From: a virus
Strand: one strand, 5' to 3'
Virus record (IMG/VR): IMGVR_UViG_3300030328_000950
Location: 1 to 42,528 of that record
DNA length: 42,528 nt
Shown here piece by piece: positions 2,143 through 36,827 of this stretch. The notes under the pieces were generated by a model. It was not told where the DNA came from, did no database searches, and worked only from the letters and a program-made list of their open reading frames with translations. Position 1 is the first letter of the stretch; each line of letters begins with the position of its first letter. The position numbers and the translations under genes are program-made.

Positions 2143-2937
2143 TTAGAAGGGTGCATCGCCTTCTTTAATATCATCTAATGATTTAGCTTTAGGCATTTCA
2201 ACACCATTTCTCATAGCAGCGTAATCATTCCATGACTTAGGTGTCTGTCTGCTATCAACCCACCATGATTTAGAAAATACTTTACCGTCTACAGTATCTC
2301 CTGCTGTACATTTAGAAGCCATAATGCATCTAAAGTCAGGTGACTTCTGAGATTTCTTTTCTTCATCAGGGATATAATTGACGCTACCACCACACATACA
2401 CCATAGTCCTACGCTATCTAATGCTAATGAACCGTCCTCATGTTGGGTTACTGTAACTTTATATCCTGCACTCTCCATCTTTGCAATGATACCACCACTA
2501 GAGGAGGCGGAGGAAGTAGACGACCCACCTACTTCCTCCCTTTTAACTGCTACTTTCGCAGCAGGCTTTGTGCTTTGAGCCTTCTTGACAGTGGTGTCAC
2601 CCTGCGTTTTAGACATTTCTTCTCTACTAGGTCTTGCCTTATCACTACCTTGATACTTCCAATTAGCTAATGCTCTACCTATTGCAGAAGTTTCACAGTT
2701 CTCTAACCATGCTTCCTTATTAGCAAAGCCACCTTGTCCTTTGTATTCTTGTGCATACCCTGTTGCTACTGGTATTATTTCTTCCATATCATTATATATT
2801 TTTGCACCCATAACAACCATAGTGCCGTCTGCACTAAGTGTATGGATAAATGTATCAATCCTACCATTAGGATTATCAGACCAAAACTTCTTTAGTCTGT
2901 CTTCAACTGTTTCGTAGTTGTCTAAATTAAAAGCCAT
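2143..2937 (-). CDS. Putative ssDNA-annealing/recombination protein with SSB-like C-terminal tip
   Basis: The 264-residue product opens with a globular domain containing ENCETSAIGRALA (near residues 80-92), a motif recurring in a family of actinophage proteins and reminiscent of the E-x-T-x-A-x-x-RAL helix of Rad52/Sak-type annealing proteins. A low-complexity Ser/Ala/Gly linker follows (near 135-150), then a Cys-containing domain (CMCGG, then FRC and KC) that may bind zinc. The last residues, GDAPF after an acidic stretch, resemble the DDDIPF tip by which bacterial SSB recruits replication partners. It is the last gene of the leftward operon; AAAGGAGG precedes the ATG. Annealing of single strands is inferred from these motifs. 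Confidence 0.55.
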   Translation of the reverse strand: MAFNLDNYETVEDRLKKFWSDNPNGRIDTFIHTLSADGTMVVMGAKIYNDMEEIIPVATGYAQEYKGQGGFANKEAWLENCETSAIGRALANWKYQGSDKARPSREEMSKTQGDTTVKKAQSTKPAAKVAVKREEVGGSSTSSASSSGGIIAKMESAGYKVTVTQHEDGSLALDSVGLWCMCGGSVNYIPDEEKKSQKSPDFRCIMASKCTAGDTVDGKVFSKSWWVDSRQTPKSWNDYAAMRNGVEMPKAKSLDDIKEGDAPF

Positions 2938-2961: not shown

Positions 2962-4002
2962 TTACTCTTCTAAATTAACTAAGTACTCAGCAGTAACACC
3001 TTTATCAGGCTTAACAAATAGACAATGCTGTGATGGTCTACCCATACTAGCTAATTGTTCTAATGCATATCCATTGTGGCTTTCTGTACTACCATTAACC
3101 CACACTCTTGTATCGTTTATATACAAGTTAGTTGGTGTATGATAGTGACCACATACTGCGTGAGTAAAGTCTTCCATAAGACCATTAGCTGCTAGAGATT
3201 TCCAACCTAAGATTTTTTTATTATATCCATAGAAAGGAAGTCCCATGCTACCTCTAATGTTATCTCCGTGAAAGCACAGAAACTTTGCTTTCTTACCTAA
3301 GTCTGCTACTAAGTACCAAGTCTTATCAGGTACTATAAACTTAATTCTCTTTTCATTAGCAAACATTGTTTCCAATATCTTTCCTAACATACGGTCAGCG
3401 TTGCTCTCAGGGTTATAATCTCTACGACTACGACCACCTAAAGCACCGTGGTTTCCTATAACCCAATATACTTCTACTTCATCAAACTCAGTTAATAGTT
3501 TGCTAAAGAAACCATGTAGTATTCTTGGACCATCTACTGTTACTTGCTTATATAAAGAACTGTCTATCTCATGTGCTTGTCCAGGAAAGATAAGCTCTCC
3601 TTCTACGATGTCACCAAGGCACATTACTGCACACTTCTTTATAGAGTGATTAGCTTTTTGAACTCTAGTTATTTGTATAATCTTATCAGCATAACGAAGT
3701 ACTCTTTCTTCTGCTATGTCACTATTATAAGTAGGTGTTCTTTTTGCTAATTGAATATCACTAAGTAAAGGCACACATATTTCTTCTCCTTTTGTTTTAG
3801 ATTTAGCAGGTGCTTTTACTTTTGGTAAGTCAAGCGTACTTATACCATCTCTTGCACCCATATATACTGCTTCAACTAGGTCAGCTTTCTTATCCTTTAA
3901 CTTATCAATTTGTTTTAATAACCTTTGATTAGTTTGTTTAAGGTCTTTGATAGCTTCACTTTCAGCTTCTGCTAGTAAAGATGCAAGTTCTTTCTTATTC
4001 AT
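2962..4002 (-). CDS. Calcineurin-like metallophosphoesterase
   Basis: The 346-residue protein carries the metallophosphoesterase motif series: SDIQ at 81-84, GD at 130-131, GNH at 183-185, HGD at 245-247 and GHYH at 285-288. The usual first motif D-x-H is D-x-Q here, so one metal ligand is changed. Residues 1-45 form a Lys/Glu-rich coiled coil. Phage relatives of this fold include SbcD/Mre11-type nucleases and other phosphodiesterases; a DNA end-processing role alongside the annealing protein is attractive but not shown by the sequence. Its ATG overlaps the end of the upstream gene by eight bases, and the next gene lies 24 bases downstream. Confidence 0.75.
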   Translation of the reverse strand: MNKKELASLLAEAESEAIKDLKQTNQRLLKQIDKLKDKKADLVEAVYMGARDGISTLDLPKVKAPAKSKTKGEEICVPLLSDIQLAKRTPTYNSDIAEERVLRYADKIIQITRVQKANHSIKKCAVMCLGDIVEGELIFPGQAHEIDSSLYKQVTVDGPRILHGFFSKLLTEFDEVEVYWVIGNHGALGGRSRRDYNPESNADRMLGKILETMFANEKRIKFIVPDKTWYLVADLGKKAKFLCFHGDNIRGSMGLPFYGYNKKILGWKSLAANGLMEDFTHAVCGHYHTPTNLYINDTRVWVNGSTESHNGYALEQLASMGRPSQHCLFVKPDKGVTAEYLVNLEE

Positions 4003-4377: not shown

Positions 4378-6177
4378 CTAGCTTTTCAGGGACAACTGTT
4401 TAGCTAAGTCTTTTACATGTTCTTTAATTCGTATAGGAATAATATTATTCTTAAACATAAAGCGTAATATATCCTCTCTGTCTTGCTTTCGTAAATTAGC
4501 ACTACCACCACTTTCATCTACACCTACTACTTGTTGGTCACTAATCCATATACGAGGCTCAGGTTGTTCTGCTAACCACTTAAGTCCTTCGTAGTCAATA
4601 GAGTTCAATCCGTATTCTTGTAAGGCATCAATAGCTTTAGTATCAATACGACCATCTTGAGCGATTACTTTAATCATACCATCATAGCCGTCCTGCTTAC
4701 AGCCATAGCCTACATAACCTGCAATGTTAGAAGCTGGTAGTAGTTCTACTACTTCTCTAATGTCATCACTTGACCACCCCATACTGCCTGAACAATCTAT
4801 CATCATAGAAGCACCTGCAATAACTTTCCTATTACTAAATACTTTTCTATCAGTAGTCATACGATACATATTCTTAGGAACAATACCTCTATCACTATTC
4901 ATCTTTGATAGTTGTCTAAGAGCTTTAGGAACTTTACCATTAGGTACAAACTTCTTAACATCTGCTTTGCCGTGAGTACCTCTTGGATTACTGTAATAAT
5001 CTATAAGACCTCTCTTAGCGTTTTGGTCTGCACTTTCTATAATATCATTAGCAAGTTCGTTACTAACATTATCAGGTAATGATAGTGTTTCCTCGTATTC
5101 CTTAGCTAACCCATCTGCATTAATTAGCTCTTGTAAGTACTCCTCACTAGGAAGTTCCATAAGAGTATTTGCATAGACTTCAGCTTCTTTACTGTCATCT
5201 GTATTAGATAAGTAAGTAGCATAAGCACCCATCATTTGAGATATCTCATTGTACAAATGGTTGTAATAGTGTTGCTTATGGGGTTCAAGTAATCTCTTTC
5301 TAAGAATATTTACTTTTCTACGCATACTTTCTTTACCTGCTCTAGTACTAACATACTTATGATTATGAAAATCGTATGTCCAGTTAAAGAACCTAGCATT
5401 ATCTAAGTATCTCTTAGCTTCTCTTATCATACCCCATAGTGCTGAAACACAATCCTCTATATAAGCAATGTCTTTCTCTAATGTAGCTTCAGGTATATTA
5501 ATACCTACTGGATAGTGCTTATGTAAGTGAGCTTTGATATGTTCTCTTTCATTTTTTAAACGAGAACCGTAAGTATTAGCTACACCTGCAGTATGTAGTA
5601 AGTGTAGATACACTTCATACATAGGTGTATTATCAAACAACATATCAATAAGTTTCTTGTTTATATTTTCTTTACTAGCATCAGCCATCTCTGGTATAAA
5701 GAAATGAGAGGTCTGCATAAATAACTTTTCATTATTAGTTAGCTTTTCATCAGCCTCTTTCTTATCATTAATCTTACTTTTGTAAGACCAACTATCCATA
5801 CCATATGCTTTAGCAATCTTTTTAGCAACTCTTTCTGCTTTTTGTCTAGCAATTATTGCTGCAATAAGAAACTGTGCTATGTGTAGGGCTTCATCATTGT
5901 TCTTGAACTTCATGTCCTCAAATAACTGTGCCTTAGCATAAGCAATTTGTGTAAGGGTGTGTTCTTTATTCTGATTACTAAGATAGTTTGGAATAACTAA
6001 CTCTCTCTTATGTAAAGGTAGTAAAGAAGTACGCCTTACAACAGAGTACTTCCTTACTTTATTACCACGCATACTAAGGTTAGCAAGAGTAGAGGGTACT
6101 TCTTGTGAAGTACCCTTGCTCTTTGTAAATAATGTAGATTTCCTACTTGCTAACTCATCTAGGAAGTTACTCATCAT
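4378..6177 (-). CDS. CobT-like von Willebrand factor A domain protein
   Basis: The 599-residue protein ends in a VWA domain: the metal-ion-dependent adhesion motif D-x-S-x-S is DCSGS at 461-465 after a hydrophobic strand, and later strands such as VGYG and PRIWISDQQ continue the fold. The long N-terminal part is helical, Lys-rich and unrecognised. The protein directly follows a MoxR/CobS-like AAA+ ATPase and overlaps it by 11 bases. AAA+ and VWA partners of this type act together in metal chelatases (CobS/CobT, BchI/BchD) and in MoxR systems that mature or remodel protein complexes. A remodelling job on a host or phage complex is therefore likely; the substrate is unknown. Last gene of the operon, followed by a strong terminator. 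Confidence 0.75.
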   Translation of the reverse strand: MMSNFLDELASRKSTLFTKSKGTSQEVPSTLANLSMRGNKVRKYSVVRRTSLLPLHKRELVIPNYLSNQNKEHTLTQIAYAKAQLFEDMKFKNNDEALHIAQFLIAAIIARQKAERVAKKIAKAYGMDSWSYKSKINDKKEADEKLTNNEKLFMQTSHFFIPEMADASKENINKKLIDMLFDNTPMYEVYLHLLHTAGVANTYGSRLKNEREHIKAHLHKHYPVGINIPEATLEKDIAYIEDCVSALWGMIREAKRYLDNARFFNWTYDFHNHKYVSTRAGKESMRRKVNILRKRLLEPHKQHYYNHLYNEISQMMGAYATYLSNTDDSKEAEVYANTLMELPSEEYLQELINADGLAKEYEETLSLPDNVSNELANDIIESADQNAKRGLIDYYSNPRGTHGKADVKKFVPNGKVPKALRQLSKMNSDRGIVPKNMYRMTTDRKVFSNRKVIAGASMMIDCSGSMGWSSDDIREVVELLPASNIAGYVGYGCKQDGYDGMIKVIAQDGRIDTKAIDALQEYGLNSIDYEGLKWLAEQPEPRIWISDQQVVGVDESGGSANLRKQDREDILRFMFKNNIIPIRIKEHVKDLAKQLSLKS

Positions 6178-6859
6178 TATCCAGTTCTGTCATAGCATCT
6201 ATAATATTGGAAGTATCATCAGGAAATATTGCCCTTGCTGCTACTTCTAATGCACAACCTTTATCTAACAACTCTGCAAATGCTGTCCATTTACGAACAG
6301 AAAAGTTGCTACTATAATTGTAGTCCTCATATACTGCTTTGAGTTTGTTAGGTAGTGCTTCCAATGCATCAGGATGTACTTCATTAACCTCTATCTTTAC
6401 AGGAAATCTGTCGCCTAAAGCATCACTCAAATCTTGAGGTGTGCCGTTCATAGTAGCGACTATTTGAAATCCTTCAGCAGGTTTTACTACTTCCTTAGCT
6501 TTGTTAGGTAAGGTGAATTTCGCAAACTTAGGGTCGTCTAAGAGTGCATGTAAGAAAGTCATAACATCTACACCAGCATGGTCTATCTCGTTAATAACTA
6601 GTCTTGCACCTTCCTTCCAAGCACGAACACCAACACCATCAAGCCACTCAAATCCACCACTATCGGTAGCTATATAGTGTCCCATAAGCTCTGCTGCTGT
6701 GCTATCTTGTGTAAGTGTAATGTTATATACACCTTGTTCTTTGCTTAGTCCAAGTGTATTTGCTTGATATGTTTTACCTGTACCAGGTACTCCATAGAGC
6801 AATACTCTCGGTGTAAAAGGGATAACCTTTTTAAGTAATCCCCATATGTTTTGTTCCAT
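6167..6859 (-). CDS. MoxR/CobS-like AAA+ ATPase
   Basis: The 230-residue protein shows Walker A GVPGTGKT (23-30), Walker B LVINEID (87-93), sensor-1 Asn in ATMNG (near 138) and an arginine-finger candidate in GDRFP (R151). It is a compact single AAA+ module, as in MoxR or the CobS chelatase subunit. The gene lies between a small acidic protein and the VWA gene, so an ATPase/VWA pair is the obvious reading. GAGGAGG inside the end of the upstream gene is its ribosome binding site, six bases before ATG 6859. ATP hydrolysis is well supported; the target is not. Confidence 0.85.
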   Translation of the reverse strand: MEQNIWGLLKKVIPFTPRVLLYGVPGTGKTYQANTLGLSKEQGVYNITLTQDSTAAELMGHYIATDSGGFEWLDGVGVRAWKEGARLVINEIDHAGVDVMTFLHALLDDPKFAKFTLPNKAKEVVKPAEGFQIVATMNGTPQDLSDALGDRFPVKIEVNEVHPDALEALPNKLKAVYEDYNYSSNFSVRKWTAFAELLDKGCALEVAARAIFPDDTSNIIDAMTELDNDE

Positions 6860-6862
6860 GAC

Positions 6863-7348
6863 CTACTCCTCCTCTTTTTCTTGGTCTTGTACTTGCACTT
6901 CTTGTGCTAACATACTGTCAATGTCTTTGAAAAACTTTGTAGTAAGTCTATCTACATTGACATTGTTCCATACTTCCATAGGTTCCTCTTGTATATTAGT
7001 AACAAGTGGTACATCAGGAAGCATACTGTAAGCATCTAAAGGAATATCCACTGCGACAGAGTGAGTTTGCTCATGGTCGCCTTGTACTACAAATTCCCAT
7101 ATAGTCCTTACATGTTCCTCACACTCAACACCTTGCTTGTGCTTGTGAGATATAGCCATTTTAAGAAAGATAGGAAACCTATCATCTATACAGGCTAGTT
7201 CGCCTAGTGGTGTTGCTTCAAACAACCACTCTGCTATCTGTCTGTTGTACTCATTCTTAATGGACAGTTCATTAAGGTATCTCAGTATTGGTTTAGTAAT
7301 AGCAACATGCGTTTTAACTTTGCTTGTTGCTTCGTATTGAATACTCAT
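6863..7348 (-). CDS. Unknown protein of the AAA+/VWA operon (161 residues)
   Basis: I recognise no family. The sequence is mixed alpha/beta with no membrane span or Cys motif; residues 30-60 contain NRQIAEWLFEATPLGELACI, and the last third is acidic and Gln-rich. It ends KEEE, whose codons form the ribosome binding site of the ATPase gene. Immediate linkage to the AAA+ and VWA genes suggests an adaptor or a substrate of that pair. The start ATG follows the previous TAG by one base, with GAGGAGG inside the upstream gene. Confidence 0.75.
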   Translation of the reverse strand: MSIQYEATSKVKTHVAITKPILRYLNELSIKNEYNRQIAEWLFEATPLGELACIDDRFPIFLKMAISHKHKQGVECEEHVRTIWEFVVQGDHEQTHSVAVDIPLDAYSMLPDVPLVTNIQEEPMEVWNNVNVDRLTTKFFKDIDSMLAQEVQVQDQEKEEE

Positions 7349-7349
7349 A

Positions 7350-8042
7350 CTATTCCTCCTCCTCTACTTTGAGTTCTTTTAAGAACTTGATAATGTCATC
7401 ATCACTAACACCAGTATCAATATCTTTTATTATCTTGTTTCTATCTATTATGTTTCCTGCTGCATCACTATATCCACCTTCCATAATGTTTGCTATGGTA
7501 GGCACAGAGCCTAGTGATATCATTGCAGGTTCAGTATGTTCTAAACACTTTTCATAGAAATTACTAAAGTGTTCTCTATTATTTATTATGAACTCAGTAG
7601 ATTGTTTTAATAGAACTGCTGCTACACTAAAGTCGCTATAGTCTTTGCCTTCACTCTTTAGTTTATCTGCAATACTATCTCTCATACTAATATCACTAGC
7701 ATCACCTTCAACCATTCCTTCAAACTGATTTGCTACAAAGACAGCTAAACCCACCATCATATCAGCCATACGATTGAACCATAAAGTTCTATCTAACATA
7801 TTGAGTATGTCAGTATAGTCAGTAGATGCTATGTGAAATTTACCACCAGCTTCATTCTTGTGAATATTGCCGTCCTTATCTACCTCAGGTGGATAAAAGA
7901 AACCAACACCTTGTAGTTTCATTTCACCCATCATACTAATCTCTTGATAGTCCTTTAGACCAAGCTGTTCAGCTCGTTCCATTTTCTCTTTTAAGTTCCT
8001 ACTAAATTCGGCAAACTGTTCCTCGCTAGGTACATCTCCCAT
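7350..8042 (-). CDS. Unknown helical protein of the AAA+/VWA operon (230 residues)
   Basis: No family recognised. The protein is acidic and Met-rich: a Lys/Glu-rich helix at residues 8-30, a segment with FFYPPEVDKDG near 50, a hydrophobic helix near residues 87-105 (MADMMVGLAVFVANQF), and a C-terminal acidic helix ending KVEEEE. ATG 8042 overlaps the previous TAA by one base. The GAG codons of the tail give the ribosome binding site of the next gene. Confidence 0.75.
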   Translation of the reverse strand: MGDVPSEEQFAEFSRNLKEKMERAEQLGLKDYQEISMMGEMKLQGVGFFYPPEVDKDGNIHKNEAGGKFHIASTDYTDILNMLDRTLWFNRMADMMVGLAVFVANQFEGMVEGDASDISMRDSIADKLKSEGKDYSDFSVAAVLLKQSTEFIINNREHFSNFYEKCLEHTEPAMISLGSVPTIANIMEGGYSDAAGNIIDRNKIIKDIDTGVSDDDIIKFLKELKVEEEE

Positions 8043-8353
8043 TATTCCTCCTCTTGTTTAGTTAGCTTTGTATTTCTTGCTACTAAATAACGGTAACCAT
8101 TTCTAGTAGCTGTCTTGAACTCTATCTCTAAGTTCAATTCTTTAAGGCTAGTGCAATCAGTTCTAAGTTTATTAGCACCAGTTAAATCATCTAATGAAGT
8201 AACTCCTATAACTATCCACTTTCCTTTAGCACCTTGCACTTTTCTTAGTGCTTGTTTATACCTACTAGTAACAGCAGTACCTTTACCACCTCTACCTGTA
8301 GGTCGGTATTGTACTTCATCATTACTAATCTCATCACCTACTTTATAGGTCAT
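8042..8353 (-). CDS. Unknown basic protein (103 residues)
   Basis: No family recognised. The product is basic, with RPTGRGGKGTAVTSRYKQAL near residues 17-36, then a beta-rich stretch (GKWIVIGVT) and ATRNGYRYLVARNT near the end. Glycine-basic patches like these often contact nucleic acid, but this is only suggestive. ATG 8353 overlaps the upstream TGA (ATGA). The final QEEE codons provide the ribosome binding site for the next gene. Confidence 0.7.
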   Translation of the reverse strand: MTYKVGDEISNDEVQYRPTGRGGKGTAVTSRYKQALRKVQGAKGKWIVIGVTSLDDLTGANKLRTDCTSLKELNLEIEFKTATRNGYRYLVARNTKLTKQEEE

Positions 8354-8682
8354 TCTTCCTCCTCTATCTCGCTACAACCACACTCACAGTTTTGTACTGT
8401 GTCATATTCTGTAGCATACTTATTGTCTATGTCGTCCTTACATGTCTTACACATAGCACGACTATTGTTCCATATTGGAATTGGTCTATCTACTGGTATC
8501 TCTGCATTACACATATCGCAAATCCAAAAGTCATCTGCTATTCCTGTGTCTAATAAAGTATCTATAAAGAATACTCCATCACTTTGTTGGTTCTCTCTAC
8601 GAAAACGCATAGCTTCTACTCTTGCAATCTGTCTGTGCAATATAGGATTAGTAACCATATACCAATGGTTACTCTCCATCAT
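8350..8682 (-). CDS. Zinc-ribbon protein (about 110 residues)
   Basis: A C-x-x-C pair (CDMC) followed about 20 residues later by CKTC makes a standard four-Cys zinc ribbon; the C terminus adds CECGC before IEEEE. The start is uncertain: tandem ATGs at 8682 and 8679, GTGs at 8685 and 8691, and an ATG at 8658 are all in frame. I chose 8682 because an AGAGG lies 11 bases upstream. The gene overlaps the end of its upstream neighbour. Ribbons of this size serve in nucleic-acid or protein contacts; the role is unknown. Confidence 0.65.
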   Translation of the reverse strand: MMESNHWYMVTNPILHRQIARVEAMRFRRENQQSDGVFFIDTLLDTGIADDFWICDMCNAEIPVDRPIPIWNNSRAMCKTCKDDIDNKYATEYDTVQNCECGCSEIEEEE

Positions 8683-8932
8683 CACAACCACAACCTCTAC
8701 CTTGAGGGACTTGTTCTATATCTAACTTAATTTCTGTAACAGGAATATCGTGCCTCTTACAATTAATTAATAACATAGTTGTATCCCCTTCAAACTTGAA
8801 GCCTACTTCTAACTTCTGTTCATATGGTTTCCCATTAACACCACCAGTTTCATCTACACATTTAAAACAATGTATATACTGGTCAGCTTCAGGTCTGTTA
8901 TTACTAGGTAGTGTCACATTATCCCAGCTCAC
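8669..8932 (-). CDS. Small Cys-containing protein (87 residues)
   Basis: Translation starts at GTG 8932, overlapping the upstream TAG (TAGTG), with GGAGGAGGAA ideally placed. The product has HCFKC near residue 22, a single Cys-Lys-Arg-His later, and ends GCGCDDGE, so a zinc site using Cys and His is possible. No family recognised. It may pair with the neighbouring zinc-ribbon protein. Confidence 0.65.
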   Translation of the reverse strand: MSWDNVTLPSNNRPEADQYIHCFKCVDETGGVNGKPYEQKLEVGFKFEGDTTMLLINCKRHDIPVTEIKLDIEQVPQGRGCGCDDGE

Positions 8933-9210
8933 TATTCCTCCTCCTTGTTATCTTTGTTATCTATTGTTCTTACTGCTTCATTTATTGCTATCAACTGTGT
9001 TATTACAGTGTCATTTGCATCTTTATCTTTATTAACAAACTCAGTAAAACTTTCTCTGAACTCATCATTACTAAGTATGGTTGCAATAAACCTAGCACGA
9101 AAGCCTTGAGACTTTTCTCCTAAGTGTTCTACAATAGCCATCTGTCCTGCTACTAATATATCTACTCTTTTAAGTAGGATATTAATAGCTTTTCTTGTAG
9201 CCTTATCCAC
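8932..9210 (-). CDS. Unknown helical protein (92 residues), GTG start
   Basis: A longer frame begins at 9249, but GTG 9210 is the better start: it lies six bases after the perfect site GAGGAGGAGG (9226-9217) and overlaps the stop of the upstream gene. The product is helical, with basic residues at the start, a hydrophobic segment VDILVAGQMAIVEHL and an acidic end, NKEEE. No family recognised; a small coiled-coil or binding protein is possible. Confidence 0.65.
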   Translation of the reverse strand: MDKATRKAINILLKRVDILVAGQMAIVEHLGEKSQGFRARFIATILSNDEFRESFTEFVNKDKDANDTVITQLIAINEAVRTIDNKDNKEEE

Positions 9211-9436
9211 TACTATCCTCCTCCTCTTTAGACCATCTACTCTTAACAAAAAATGTAGGCTTATGGTCTAACAACTCTTTAGCAGTACTATCAGTGCTAT
9301 TATCTAGCATTGATACCATACTGTCTATAAGTAGTATCGCCTCATCTTTACCTATCTCTGTACTAAAAGTAAAATCTACTGTTAATACATTGACATCATT
9401 ATTATCAGTGCTGTACATTTCATATACTTCACTCAT
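9203..9436 (-). CDS. Unknown acidic protein (77 residues)
   Basis: No family recognised. The sequence begins MSEVYEMYSTDNN and alternates beta-like (VLTVDFTFS) and helical segments. Near the end SKEEEDSSG contains the GAG run that doubles as the ribosome binding site for the gene at 9210. Its ATG overlaps the upstream TGA (ATGA), with TTGGAG upstream as ribosome binding site. Confidence 0.65.
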   Translation of the reverse strand: MSEVYEMYSTDNNDVNVLTVDFTFSTEIGKDEAILLIDSMVSMLDNSTDSTAKELLDHKPTFFVKSRWSKEEEDSSG

Positions 9437-9732
9437 GCTTTCTCCAATCTCTTACTATTCTGTTTCTTTATAGTCTGATAACCACACTCAAAGCACTGCA
9501 CAATAACATGTACTGAGCTTTTTACATTGCTATGAATAGCAAGTTGTGTGTATGTACCGTTCCTGCAATTATCACATAACATAATTGTCCCTTCTATATA
9601 TGGCAAAGCCACAGTTTCGGTAGTTAGTTTCAACAGGGTGTGAATGATATCACAACTAACGCCTACTACTGTGGCTTCACCTCGTACAAGTATCCGTTTA
9701 TTAGCGAATACTGCTATGTCCTCACATAGCAC
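9433..9732 (-). CDS. Zinc-ribbon-like protein (99 residues), first gene of the operon
   Basis: CDNC near residue 53 and CFEC near residue 80 form a four-Cys zinc ribbon around a beta-rich segment. The N-terminal half has alternating hydrophobic residues and one further Cys pair. The frame starts at GTG 9732, with no clear Shine-Dalgarno site and a TACAAT hexamer at 9749-9744, so the transcript leader would be very short; the true start is uncertain. It heads the operon that ends with the AAA+/VWA pair. Confidence 0.6.
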   Translation of the reverse strand: MLCEDIAVFANKRILVRGEATVVGVSCDIIHTLLKLTTETVALPYIEGTIMLCDNCRNGTYTQLAIHSNVKSSVHVIVQCFECGYQTIKKQNSKRLEKA

Positions 9733-10814: not shown

Positions 10815-11261
10815 TTAGGACATGTAATCCTGTATTTTACCTGTGAATTTTGAGTTCATAAACGCTTTACATTCTTGTAAAGTCGGTACTTCCTCAAATT
10901 GTTCAGAGATAGCATTGGTACCTATCTGTTCCATGAATTTAGTATTCATAGAACCGTCTTTATTAGGGGTATATGCTTTTCTCTTTAGAACTTTGGGATA
11001 ATTCTCAAACAATTCTTTAAGCTGAAGTACAGCCTCATATTGTTTAAGTATCCCTAAGTTCTTAAATTCTCCCTTAGAGTTGATAGTAGCTATCATGTAA
11101 CGAGTTTTACCCTCGCTTTCAGGGGAGAATTTAAAGGCGTATTTTCCCCTTAACTTAACGATACGCATATCGCTAGGCGCACCTTTCAGTTTGCTTTTGT
11201 ATGGGGAAATTACGGCTTCAGTATCAACCGTATAGTATTTTAGTGTGTGCTTACTTACCAT
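10815..11261 (-). CDS. Unknown basic protein (148 residues), own promoter and terminator
   Basis: No family recognised. The product is Lys-rich and compact, with beta-like strands in the first half (MRIVKLRGKYAFKFSPES, RYMIATINSKGEF) and helices later (YEAVLQLKELFENYPKV). AAAGGA precedes ATG 11261 by a normal distance. It is a single-gene unit with its own promoter upstream and a perfect terminator, next to the origin-like region. Basic charge and position suggest a DNA-binding or early host-takeover protein; this is inference. Confidence 0.65.
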   Translation of the reverse strand: MVSKHTLKYYTVDTEAVISPYKSKLKGAPSDMRIVKLRGKYAFKFSPESEGKTRYMIATINSKGEFKNLGILKQYEAVLQLKELFENYPKVLKRKAYTPNKDGSMNTKFMEQIGTNAISEQFEEVPTLQECKAFMNSKFTGKIQDYMS

Positions 11262-11289
11262 TTTAATATCCTTTCTATTAGCTTATAAG

Positions 11290-11319
11290 TACATAAACCA
11301 ACATAACATTTGAAGTCAA
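11290..11319 (-). promoter_or_regulatory. Candidate promoter of the 148-residue gene
   Basis: On the minus strand TTGACT (11319-11314) and TATGTA (11295-11290) are 18 bp apart. The -35 hexamer is identical to that of the promoter at 10389-10416. The -10 match is only fair. Confidence 0.4.
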
Positions 11320-17473: not shown

Positions 17474-20400
17474 ATGGCTGAAATAAGATGGTGGTGGACA
17501 TCTCCTCTAACTGATGAGTATGAAAACCAAAAACAAGAAGAACGAATAGAACAATCTGCTATATTGGGTCAGTTATTTAATGCTGCTCCTGATAAAGCAA
17601 ATAATTTAAGAAACCTTGTTAATGAACATTTCTATTTACCAAAAGATGTTCTTGTAGGTTCTGCACTAATGGATTTAACTACTGATAGTCCTGAATTATC
17701 TACCATTGTAGAACGATGGTTAGATGTAGAAAAGACTTGGTGGGACAGAACTAAAGCTGTTGGTAGAGGAGTTATAAGAACTGCATTTACTGCATTTGAT
17801 AGTTTGCAAGATGAGATTGTTAAGAAACCAACACTTGCATATCAAAAATTTCTTAATGATAAGAAATGGAATGATGGAGTAGGTTTAGCTGGTGCTACTT
17901 TGCAACTGCTTACAAGTCGTGAAGCAAGAAATGATTTACAAAATATTAGACAAGAACTAGGTCCTTCAGTAGGTAGAGAAGCTATTACTTCTGCAATGAA
18001 AGGTGAAAAAGTAAATTTAGGAGAAGGATACTTTGCTAACTCTACATTAGCTGAAGATACAGATGTTTATAAAGAATTAGTTGGTAGAGGTGCAGACCCT
18101 GAAGAAGTTAAAAAAATTGTACAAACTTATTATGGTCAAGACATTACAAATTCTGAAAGAATGCGTGATGAAGGTTTAACTATACAAAATAGATTTGGTA
18201 CAACTAAATTAACTCCTGCTGCTGGTTTAGTCAGTAATATTATTGAACCTGGCACAAAATCATACAACATAGTCACAGGAGTTATTGATGGTGCTTATAC
18301 TTTATTAGCTGACCCATCAATACTTGTAGGTAGCTATTTATCTAAAGCTGGAAAAGCTACAAGAAGTTTAAGTCAAGCTGATGCATTAAAAGGTGCAGGT
18401 ATTATAGACAAAGCTGTAAGAAAAACTGTACATATACCAAGTGCTACAGATTATTTAGCTAATTCAAAAGGTGGAATGTTTATAGTTGACCAACTTATTA
18501 AAGCTGACAATTTTGATACTGTAGGTAGATTAATGAAGAACCAAGGTGATGCAGTATTACATAAAAAATTAAAACAAGCTACAACAAGAGATGAAGTATA
18601 TGATGCACTCATACCTGCAATAGAAGGACTAGAAGTAACTAAAAGATTAGACCCAACATCTTTGTTTTTAAAAGGCAACCTATCTAGTAGATTAGGTAAG
18701 TTAGTTGGTGGTGAGTATGGTGAAGCTGTAGGTTTATCAGGTGCTATTAAAAAATCACAATCAGAAAGTGGAGTAGCTAGATTATTTCAAGGTTTTCCAG
18801 TACCAAAATTAAATGTTAAAGATTTAAATCAATCGTTTTTTGATTTAAAAGATTGGATGAGATTTGCAAAAGTAGATGATGATATCGCTGAACCTGTGTT
18901 AGATAAGTTAGCAGAATTAGCTGAAAGCAGAATATTAAATCCTAACAAAGCACAAGCTATGCAAAATATGGGTGACATATTAGATATTTGGAATGATGTA
19001 TTAACACATATTGGTCAAAAGTTTGAAGCTATTGATTTACCTCCACAGTTAGTCAAAGGTATAAAAAGATGGATGGCTAGTGTAGATGAAACACATAAAT
19101 ATTTTGTTAATGAATTAGGACAAAGTGAATGGTTTCCTGGTTCTAAGTTTGACAGTATTAATACAAACATGCGTAAATACTTTGGTGAAGAACTAGATGA
19201 GGCTGATGCTTATAACATAATATCTAGAGTTATATCTAAATATAAAAAAGATAGCAATGTTGTTGATGATGAAGTACAAGATTTAGTTAATAAGTTAAGA
19301 GATATTGCTGATAGTCCTAATGAACAAGTACATAAAACTTTAGTAGATGAAGTTACTAGTGGTTATTATCCAGGTGCTGAAAGAGAAGCATTAGAGATAG
19401 CAGATGAGATAGGAATAAGAACAAGTGGTAGAGTTCCCTACGGACATACTGCTGTTGATGCAAAAGTAGACCAAGACTTTTTATCAGAAGAAATACGAAC
19501 TAGTGGTGCAAAAATATTTAGCATGGGATACAAAATGCGACCTGAAGAAACAATTGATTTAGGTAAAGAAGGTTCTACATTTGCAAGAGTATTAGCAGGT
19601 AAAAGAACATCTACTACAAGACATGCTGCTGGTTGGGCAAAAGAAGGTGGAGTTCCAAAAACAGGAGAAAAAATATATTTTAAAAATTATGAAGATGATG
19701 TAGTTGGAGTAACAGTTACAAATGTACGAACATTACCTCGTAATTTATTTACAAGTCCTGAACACAGACCATTGTTAGATGACATATTACAAACAGAAGG
19801 TTGGACAGAAGTAGAGTATGCATATCGTCTTAGAGATAGAGTAGAAAGTGGTAAAGCTATTCGTGTTGAATTTCAAATTAATGAAGGTTCTAGATATGAT
19901 AGTTTATCACCAAGAATGAAAAATTTAAATTTAACTGATATGAGAGGTGTAGATGAATACAACGCACAAGTAGCTTTGAATAAAGCTAAAGAAGGTTTAG
20001 CAATTGATATCAGTAATGATATGAAAAATTTATCTAATAGACAAAGAAGAAGAGCACAATATCTAATAAAAGAAGTAGAACAAACTGAAAAAGCATTAGA
20101 AAAAGTAAGAAGTGCTCGATTAGATTTAGATAGACAAATAATGCAAACTCCTGATAAAGCAACAAAGGGTGATGAATATGTAGAAGTTTATTCCAAACTT
20201 TCAAAAGATGATGAATCATTAAGACTATTACTAGTTAAAGACAGAGATGAACTTTATGAACTTGTACCTAACTATCGTAAAGTAGATGACTTGTCTGCAT
20301 CAAAAGATATTTATGACCCTGATTATTGGAAACAAGATTTTGGAATTGTTGACCCTAAAGGTGACAATATGGGTCAAGCAGTTAAATATAATATAGATAC

Positions 20401-35702: not shown

Positions 35703-36827
35703 ATGGCAGAGATATCAGGATTAGGAGCTGATGCTCCAATCTATGCTCAACAAATTAATAACTTCACTGGTGAATTGTTTAAAGTTGGTGGTCAAAGAAC
35801 ACCTCTACTCTCTGCAGTAGGCGGACTTAACGGTGGCAAAACATTAAACTCTACATATTGGCAATTCCAAGTAGACGATGATGCTAAAGTTACTTCCGAA
35901 CCTGGCAAGGGTGCAGAAGGTGGTGCACCTACTGAATATCTTGGAAGAAAAAGAGCTGCATATACTTATGTAACTCAAGTTTTTCACAAGGGTGTACAAA
36001 TGACTTATACCGCTTTAGCATCTACTGGCAATCAAAACCCATTTGATTTATCAGCTAACGCTATCGAGTTCTCAGACGGACAAGGTGGCACAACAGCTGG
36101 TGACAAATTGGCATTGTTCGGTGGTTCAGCAGTGGCAGACGAATTTGCAGTACAAATGGAAAAAGCTATGACTAAATTAGCAAGAGAAGTTGAATGGTTC
36201 TTATTCAATGGTTCTTTCTCAGATGGTGCTCACGGCACACCTGGTTCAGGAACTAGAGAAATGTGGGGGATTGACCACTGGGTTAATCAAAACAAGAACG
36301 CTTCAAACACAGCAACCCTAAACCCATTAGGCGGTAACTGTTTTTACAACGATGCCGCAGGAGATGGTTCAGGTTCAGCTAGAGTTCTTTCCTTTGACGC
36401 TATTGCAGGTGCAATGAAGCTTCTTTATGATGCTCACGCACCACTTAAACAACCAGTTCTCTGTGTAAGTCCTAAACAATTGTTGGACCTTAACACAGAA
36501 CTTATTGGTGGTAATGTCGGTATTACTGGTGCAATCATTCCTAGAGATAGAAATGTTGCTGGTATTGACATTGATACAGTAGTAACCCCATTCGGTTCTA
36601 TTGGATTAATGGTCATTGACCCTGACATTATGCCAACTGGGTCTGCGTTTATTCTTGACTTGGCTTTCATACAGCCAGTGTTTACAAATATCCCTGGATA
36701 CGGAACAGTATTCGTAAGAGATATTGACCAAGATGCAAACGCAAGAGTTGGTAAAGCAATCTATATGGAGATGGGTGCAGAATATGGACCTCCTTCATAC
36801 CATTGTAAAATTCAAGCAGTAGCTTAA
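35703..36827 (+). CDS. Major capsid protein (HK97-like fold)
   Basis: The 374-residue protein follows the scaffold gene and shows typical capsid segments: an N-terminal arm with QQINNFTGELFKVGGQRTPL, an extended loop with SEPGKGAEGGAPTEYLGRK, a long spine helix (ADEFAVQMEKAMTKLAREVE) and a C-terminal beta-rich A-domain ending YGPPSYHCKIQAVA. It resembles the capsid group seen in N4/SU10-like podoviruses. AGGAGA lies upstream. Its third codon positions carry more C than the neighbouring genes, as expected of the most abundant product. A terminator hairpin follows. Confidence 0.85.
   Translation: MAEISGLGADAPIYAQQINNFTGELFKVGGQRTPLLSAVGGLNGGKTLNSTYWQFQVDDDAKVTSEPGKGAEGGAPTEYLGRKRAAYTYVTQVFHKGVQMTYTALASTGNQNPFDLSANAIEFSDGQGGTTAGDKLALFGGSAVADEFAVQMEKAMTKLAREVEWFLFNGSFSDGAHGTPGSGTREMWGIDHWVNQNKNASNTATLNPLGGNCFYNDAAGDGSGSARVLSFDAIAGAMKLLYDAHAPLKQPVLCVSPKQLLDLNTELIGGNVGITGAIIPRDRNVAGIDIDTVVTPFGSIGLMVIDPDIMPTGSAFILDLAFIQPVFTNIPGYGTVFVRDIDQDANARVGKAIYMEMGAEYGPPSYHCKIQAVA

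Follow-up and report, generated by a model that had tools for sequence, protein, structure and literature searches.

A Glu-Glu-Glu end shared by many unrelated early proteins of one marine phage lineage and spelled according to the start of the next gene

The window, i.e. the whole stretch of DNA that was analysed (IMG/VR record IMGVR_UViG_3300030328_000950), is 42.5 kb long, has a GC content of 34% and contains no tRNA gene over these 42.5 kb. The left operon is carried by the minus strand and the structural genes by the plus strand, with an SU10-type capsid gene at 35703 on the structural side. The genes of the left operon considered here are given with their length in amino acids (aa), their C-terminal residues and the family of their homologues. 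EEE: Glu-Glu-Glu end, followed by the share of family members that carry it.

9203..9436, minus strand: open reading frame (ORF), 77 aa, C-terminus KEEEDSSG; homologues form family F10.
8932..9210, minus strand: ORF, 92 aa, GTG start, C-terminus KEEE; family F35, EEE 6/7.
8669..8932, minus strand: ORF, 87 aa, C-terminus CGCDDGE, close junction without EEE; family F15.
8350..8682, minus strand: Cys-rich ORF, 110 aa, C-terminus EEEE; family F13, EEE 8/28.
8042..8353, minus strand: ORF, 103 aa, C-terminus QEEE; family F60, EEE 3/3.
7350..8042, minus strand: ORF, 230 aa, C-terminus EEEE; EEE in 34/34 family members.
6863..7348, minus strand: gene g161, 161 aa, C-terminus KEEE, followed by the AAA+ gene; family F7, EEE 34/44.
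6167..6859, minus strand: AAA+ ATPase (AAA_5; Pfam PF07728, E=1e-19, and relatives), C-terminus DNDE, not EEE.
4378..6177, minus strand: protein with a DCSGSMG (VWA/MIDAS-like) motif, found by eye in the sequence.
2962..4002, minus strand: calcineurin-like phosphoesterase (Pfam PF00149, slightly below the cut-off).

The AAA_5 ATPase adjoins the DCSGSMG protein; the arrangement of a MoxR-like ATPase with a VWA protein was checked, the motif being recognised by eye only, and Pfam and PHROGs searches with the 4378..6177 protein gave no VWA match in Pfam. Most of the proteins that carry the tail have no match in Pfam or PHROGs, and a fold search with the 230-aa protein found none (best E 1.8). Another acidic end occurs in the protein encoded at 2143-2937 (minus strand), which terminates in DDIKEGDAPF; members of its family (F1) mostly end in an acidic residue followed by xPF. 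This type of end is presumably comparable to the acidic tip of single-strand DNA-binding proteins.

Six junctions of the operon, all on the minus strand, are listed according to their position. SD: Shine-Dalgarno site.

Junction 1, minus strand: GAG GAG GAG (GAGGAGGAG) at 9226-9218, SD of the GTG start at 9210.
Junction 2, minus strand: tail GAG GAG GAA (GAGGAGGAATAGTG) at 8935..8943, SD of the GTG at 8932, TAGTG overlap.
Junction 3, minus strand: tail GAG GAG GAA GAA (GAGGAGGAAGAATGA) at 8353..8364, SD of the ATG at 8353, ATGA overlap.
Junction 4, minus strand: tail GAG GAG GAA (GAGGAGGAATAATG) at 8045..8053, SD of the ATG at 8042, TAATG overlap.
Junction 5, minus strand: tail GAG GAG GAG GAA (GAGGAGGAGGAATAGTATG) at 7353..7364, SD of the ATG at 7348.
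Junction 6, minus strand: tail GAG GAG GAG (GAGGAGGAGTAGGTCATG) at 6866..6874, SD of the ATG at 6859.

The sequence-only reading had described one design for these junctions, and it is found in 6/6: GAG-GAG-GAR lies in frame at or near the upstream stop, the next start is a few bases off and AGGAGG is present each time. The SD of the downstream gene is thus located inside the coding end of the upstream gene. Five upstream proteins have EEE or EEEE at their very end; the exception is the 9203-9436 protein at junction 1, the loosest case, where EEE lies four codons before the stop and the GTG start at 9210 gives an overlap of 8 with the upstream gene. The start overlaps the stop or is near it in all six (TAGTG, ATGA, TAATG, TAGTATG or TAGGTCATG). 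The design characterises six of about nine close junctions, since those at 8669 (DDGE), 6167 (DNDE) and 9433 (LEKA) in the same operon lack EEE. The statement that GAA is the preferred Glu codon elsewhere was borne out, the GAG fraction being 0.35 in gene interiors of the left operon and 0.16 in the right half, versus 16 GAG and 7 GAA among the tail codons (Fisher P = 0.0025). In-frame GAGGAG occurs only twice inside the interiors of the left genes.

Relatives were collected by IMG/VR searches with the AAA+ protein, with an AAA+ alignment and with the phosphoesterase as second anchor (loci L002-L135). Genes and starts were obtained with a purpose-written dicodon caller script. Once contained loci had been removed, 1084 distinct gene ends remained, which fall into 141 families; the last six residues were trimmed before clustering, to keep the tail from influencing the families. 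EEE is the end of 166/1084 genes belonging to 25 families, for about 1.5 expected from the interior frequency, these counts referring to related and not independent sequences; at <70% identity, it is found in 89/476 representatives. Many unrelated early proteins of one marine phage lineage therefore share a Glu-Glu-Glu end, and the same residues stand on unrelated proteins (25 families) beyond chance. EEE terminates 4/1118 genes (motif genes excluded) in 84 viral control loci lacking any homologue of the genes studied here. That purine-rich gene ends of an AT-rich phage would produce such tails by accident of composition is scarcely credible. KKK ends do exceed expectation (19 versus 0.3 among the 1084 gene ends), but EEE outnumbers KKK about 9 to 1 (89 to 4 at <70% identity), no other homotriplet, RRR and GGG included, was found among the 1084 gene ends, and EEE is largely missing from the other strand of these genomes. 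The 14-mer GAGGAGGAATAATG was also tried as a genome-wide background and dropped: the number of matches (at least 120) is uninformative by itself, many being predicted by chance for a sequence of this length. Among the matches listed, 36/120 belong to this lineage.

Among cultured phages, the closest phosphoesterase match is Streptomyces phage Dagobah; of the 44 genes checked there, none ends in EEE and a single one in EEEQG. This phage carries, at 18466-18702 of its locus (L258), a gene annotated as encoding a Pup-like (prokaryotic ubiquitin-like) protein with C-terminus GGE. The sole match among genome contigs is the 58-kb contig PBPX01000045.1 (L256, L257) of an Actinomycetota MAG. It carries the phosphoesterase twice, at an interval of about 43.9 kb, and is thus probably a phage genome whose assembly ran beyond its starting point. 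Distant matches are found in Streptomyces, Gordonia, Microbacterium and cyanobacterial phages. An Actinomycetota host is hinted at.

The spelling of the tail was compared between genes whose next start lies from -5 to +4 of the stop, i.e. with the tail in the SD zone (n=113), and genes whose next start lies at +13 or beyond (n=22). GAG is found at codon -3 in 95/113 and at codon -2 in 72/113 of the former, versus 0/22 and 0/22 of the latter (P = 1e-14 and 5e-9). At <70% identity, GAG is at codon -3 in 50/60 and at codon -2 in 37/60 of the former, versus 0/9 at either codon of the latter (P = 2e-6 and 5e-4). The longest complement to the anti-SD within the last 15 nt reaches at least 6 in 49/64 TAATG-type tails and is 3 in 22/22 distant ones. 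At ATGA junctions, GAG is less restricted to codons -3/-2 and is more often found at -4, as expected because the SD moves one codon upstream there. SDs located between genes peak at distance 7 (central A to start), as do those of TAATG junctions. The earlier proposal that GAG is selected for RNA function was upheld, as GAG is confined to tails lying in the SD zone and shifts with the start codon. Codon switch, shift at ATGA and matching SD distance together support the view that the GAG spelling serves to initiate translation of the next gene.

Selection on the RNA might also account for the residues: an overlapping start would force the SD into the upstream end, the best spacing would read GAG-GAG and EEE would be a by-product. 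Several observations agree with this minority possibility. The intergenic SD peak of 7 falls in the Glu frame in TAATG and ATGA geometry, GAG is confined to the SD zone, and tails differ when the next start is inside the gene. In this last case (offset -8), EEE tails are found in 0/69, so that the tail is useful and not indispensable. Distances 6 and 8 are nevertheless frequent among intergenic SDs (23 and 26, for 34 at 7) but scarce where the offset is -1 (4 and 3, for 59 at 7). SD pairing demands only G as the first base of codon -1, and the Glu share of interior Gxx codons is 23%, yet codon -1 is Glu in 61/62 offset -1 (TAATG) junctions with GAG-G at codons -2/-1, in 17/17 families. At codon -3 of TAATG junctions, GAG accounts for 49/53 of xAG codons, for an interior share of 41%.

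The tail is also kept where it has no such duty, which contradicts RNA selection as a complete explanation. In family F17, a protein of 46-52 aa encoded after the phosphoesterase, EEE is found in 19/20 members and is always spelled GAA GAA GAA; the neighbouring gene has its own AAAGGAGG-type SD in the spacer downstream of the tail. In L135 (EEEE, next start at +15) and L132, g161 precedes the AAA+ gene with GAA-GAA-GAA and a separate SD. In F17 and in these two loci, the tail is thus kept without an SD role. Homologues of this kind, with EEE as GAA and an independent ribosome-binding site, are those that the sequence-only reading had named as its own refutation. In the family of the 230-aa protein, EEE ends all members, down to 10% identity with the window protein and whichever of 12 gene families lies downstream. 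Columns -3 to -1 are Glu throughout (100%) and vary synonymously, columns -12 to -4 reaching just 21-50%. The tails of F17 and of the ~50-aa family F32 show no synonymous variation, and for this reason an RNA-level purine element may lie behind them.

Overlaps at -14 and -23 were set aside as evidence of a protein role, being frame shadows of the Lys-rich start of the next gene: F14 EEE tails (offset -23) overlap the next start MPPKKK, and g161 of L127, L052 and L050 has EEE as GAA over the AAA+ start ATGAAGAAGAAT (MKKN). In L042 (reverse strand, ~11089-11293; F14, also in L044 and L049), EEE is encoded in GAAGAAGAG, whose other frame gives the KKK of MPPKKKSSS; 23 bases thereby code for two runs of opposite charge.

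Both sides of the genomes are equally packed. Among representatives, coupled junctions end in EEE in 58/94 cases on the early side and 2/92 on the structural side, the latter being a weaker control than these counts suggest because strong intragenic SDs (at least 6 matched bases) are far fewer there (5/163 versus 106/230 on the early side). The frame of intragenic SDs (Glu:Gly:Arg) is 121:17:6 on the early side and 11:12:13 on the structural side; coupled structural junctions thus lack the Glu-frame bias, which also goes against RNA selection alone. The mean charge of the last five residues (family means) is -1.05 for early genes and +0.72 for the other strand. F32 and F14 are structural-side genes with EEE tails. 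The earlier reading therefore holds for the GAG spelling, which serves the SD, while its view that acidic tails are a by-product of extreme packing falls short as the full cause, given the GAA tails followed by their own SD, the packed structural genes without tails and the 61/62 Glu at codon -1. The Glu residues are probably also selected at the protein level.

The shared ending could alternatively have spread by homologous joining, GAGGAGGAATAATG acting as a recombination linker for swaps of early genes. Downstream of the 230-aa family stand genes of 12 different families, joined to it by a nearly identical junction; gene order varies, and L250 has another repeated junction, GTTTAAAC, at five successive genes. 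This origin is thought quite unlikely: it explains neither the GAA-GAA-GAA tails away from junctions nor the synonymous variation of tails whose Glu is retained. The L250 junctions (6793-9499, minus strand) are those of five consecutive early genes of a distant relative, in which an SD-like GGTT/GGGT is followed by the palindrome GTTTAAAC and then by ATG; this second recurrent design gives tails VV, GV or DV.

A docking tag read by the adjoining AAA+/VWA pair had been proposed as well. Tailed genes do adjoin the AAA+/VWA genes, and AlphaFold places residues 228-230 of the 230-aa protein with low confidence, this end being probably a flexible, exposed tail. This role is very improbable, because L206 and L254, whose early operon lies between structural genes, have neither AAA+ nor VWA genes and keep 4-5 EEE tails; F32 and F14, on the structural side, are tailed too.

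The preferred reading, given a probability of about 60%, is that the C-terminal Glu tail is under its own selection and is recruited as SD where the next start overlaps. Many small proteins of the early operon would end in a short acidic tail, Glu-Glu-Glu as a rule, and this tail would itself be selected. Where the next start overlaps the stop or is near it (TAATG, ATGA, TAGTG), the Glu codons would be spelled GAG-GAG-GAA, placing AGGAGG at the preferred distance from this start to act as its SD, either in de novo initiation or in reinitiation once translation of the upstream gene has terminated. For a more distant next start with its own SD, the residues would be spelled GAA-GAA-GAA and no stray SD would be made. 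Tails, codon switch, spacing, frame bias and persistence of the tail without SD duty are read directly from the sequence; from these, translational coupling and selection on the protein are inferred.

The predicted protein role is that of an exposed charged tail by which short early proteins would become more abundant or longer-lived, as would happen if host proteases recognise it poorly. Protection or level control appears the most plausible role, since AAA+/VWA docking is disfavoured, the model end is of low confidence and charged C-termini raise protein level. An unlikely alternative is a dedicated acidic C-terminal tag that one particular factor of the host or of the phage reads or deliberately ignores (a protease, for instance, or a proteasome-like system of a marine Actinomycetota host) and whose codons were co-opted as a standard ribosome-binding cassette.

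Intragenic SDs are known in closely spaced gene pairs (Palleja et al. 2009, PMC2784483, citing Eyre-Walker). In the present lineage, by contrast, the constrained codons encode the same residue triplet in 25 unrelated families, and this triplet persists at places that require no SD. ATGA/TGATG overlaps allow termination-reinitiation, and SD removal substantially reduced reinitiation in 4/5 Escherichia coli pairs (Huber et al. 2019, PMC6728339). The short stop-start overlap with an intragenic SD is common to both systems; a residue-level regularity of the upstream protein is not among the points reported there, and coupling in the present case is deduced from sequence. In bacteria, charged and polar C-terminal residues raise expression, probably through slower degradation, lysine and not glutamate being the most favoured (Weber et al. 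2020, PMC7246954). Charged C-terminal residues are likewise enriched here, but as a Glu triplet in the early genes of one phage lineage, whereas Lys/Arg are concerned there, across genomes.

One short stretch serving both RNA and protein constitutes a clean natural experiment: as three residues have two spellings according to the need for a ribosome-binding site, selection on the RNA and selection on the protein can be told apart codon by codon. Conserved C-terminal residues should be considered with caution, as the next gene may partly dictate them. Should the tail also act in the protein, one testable feature would be common to many small phage proteins whose function is unknown.
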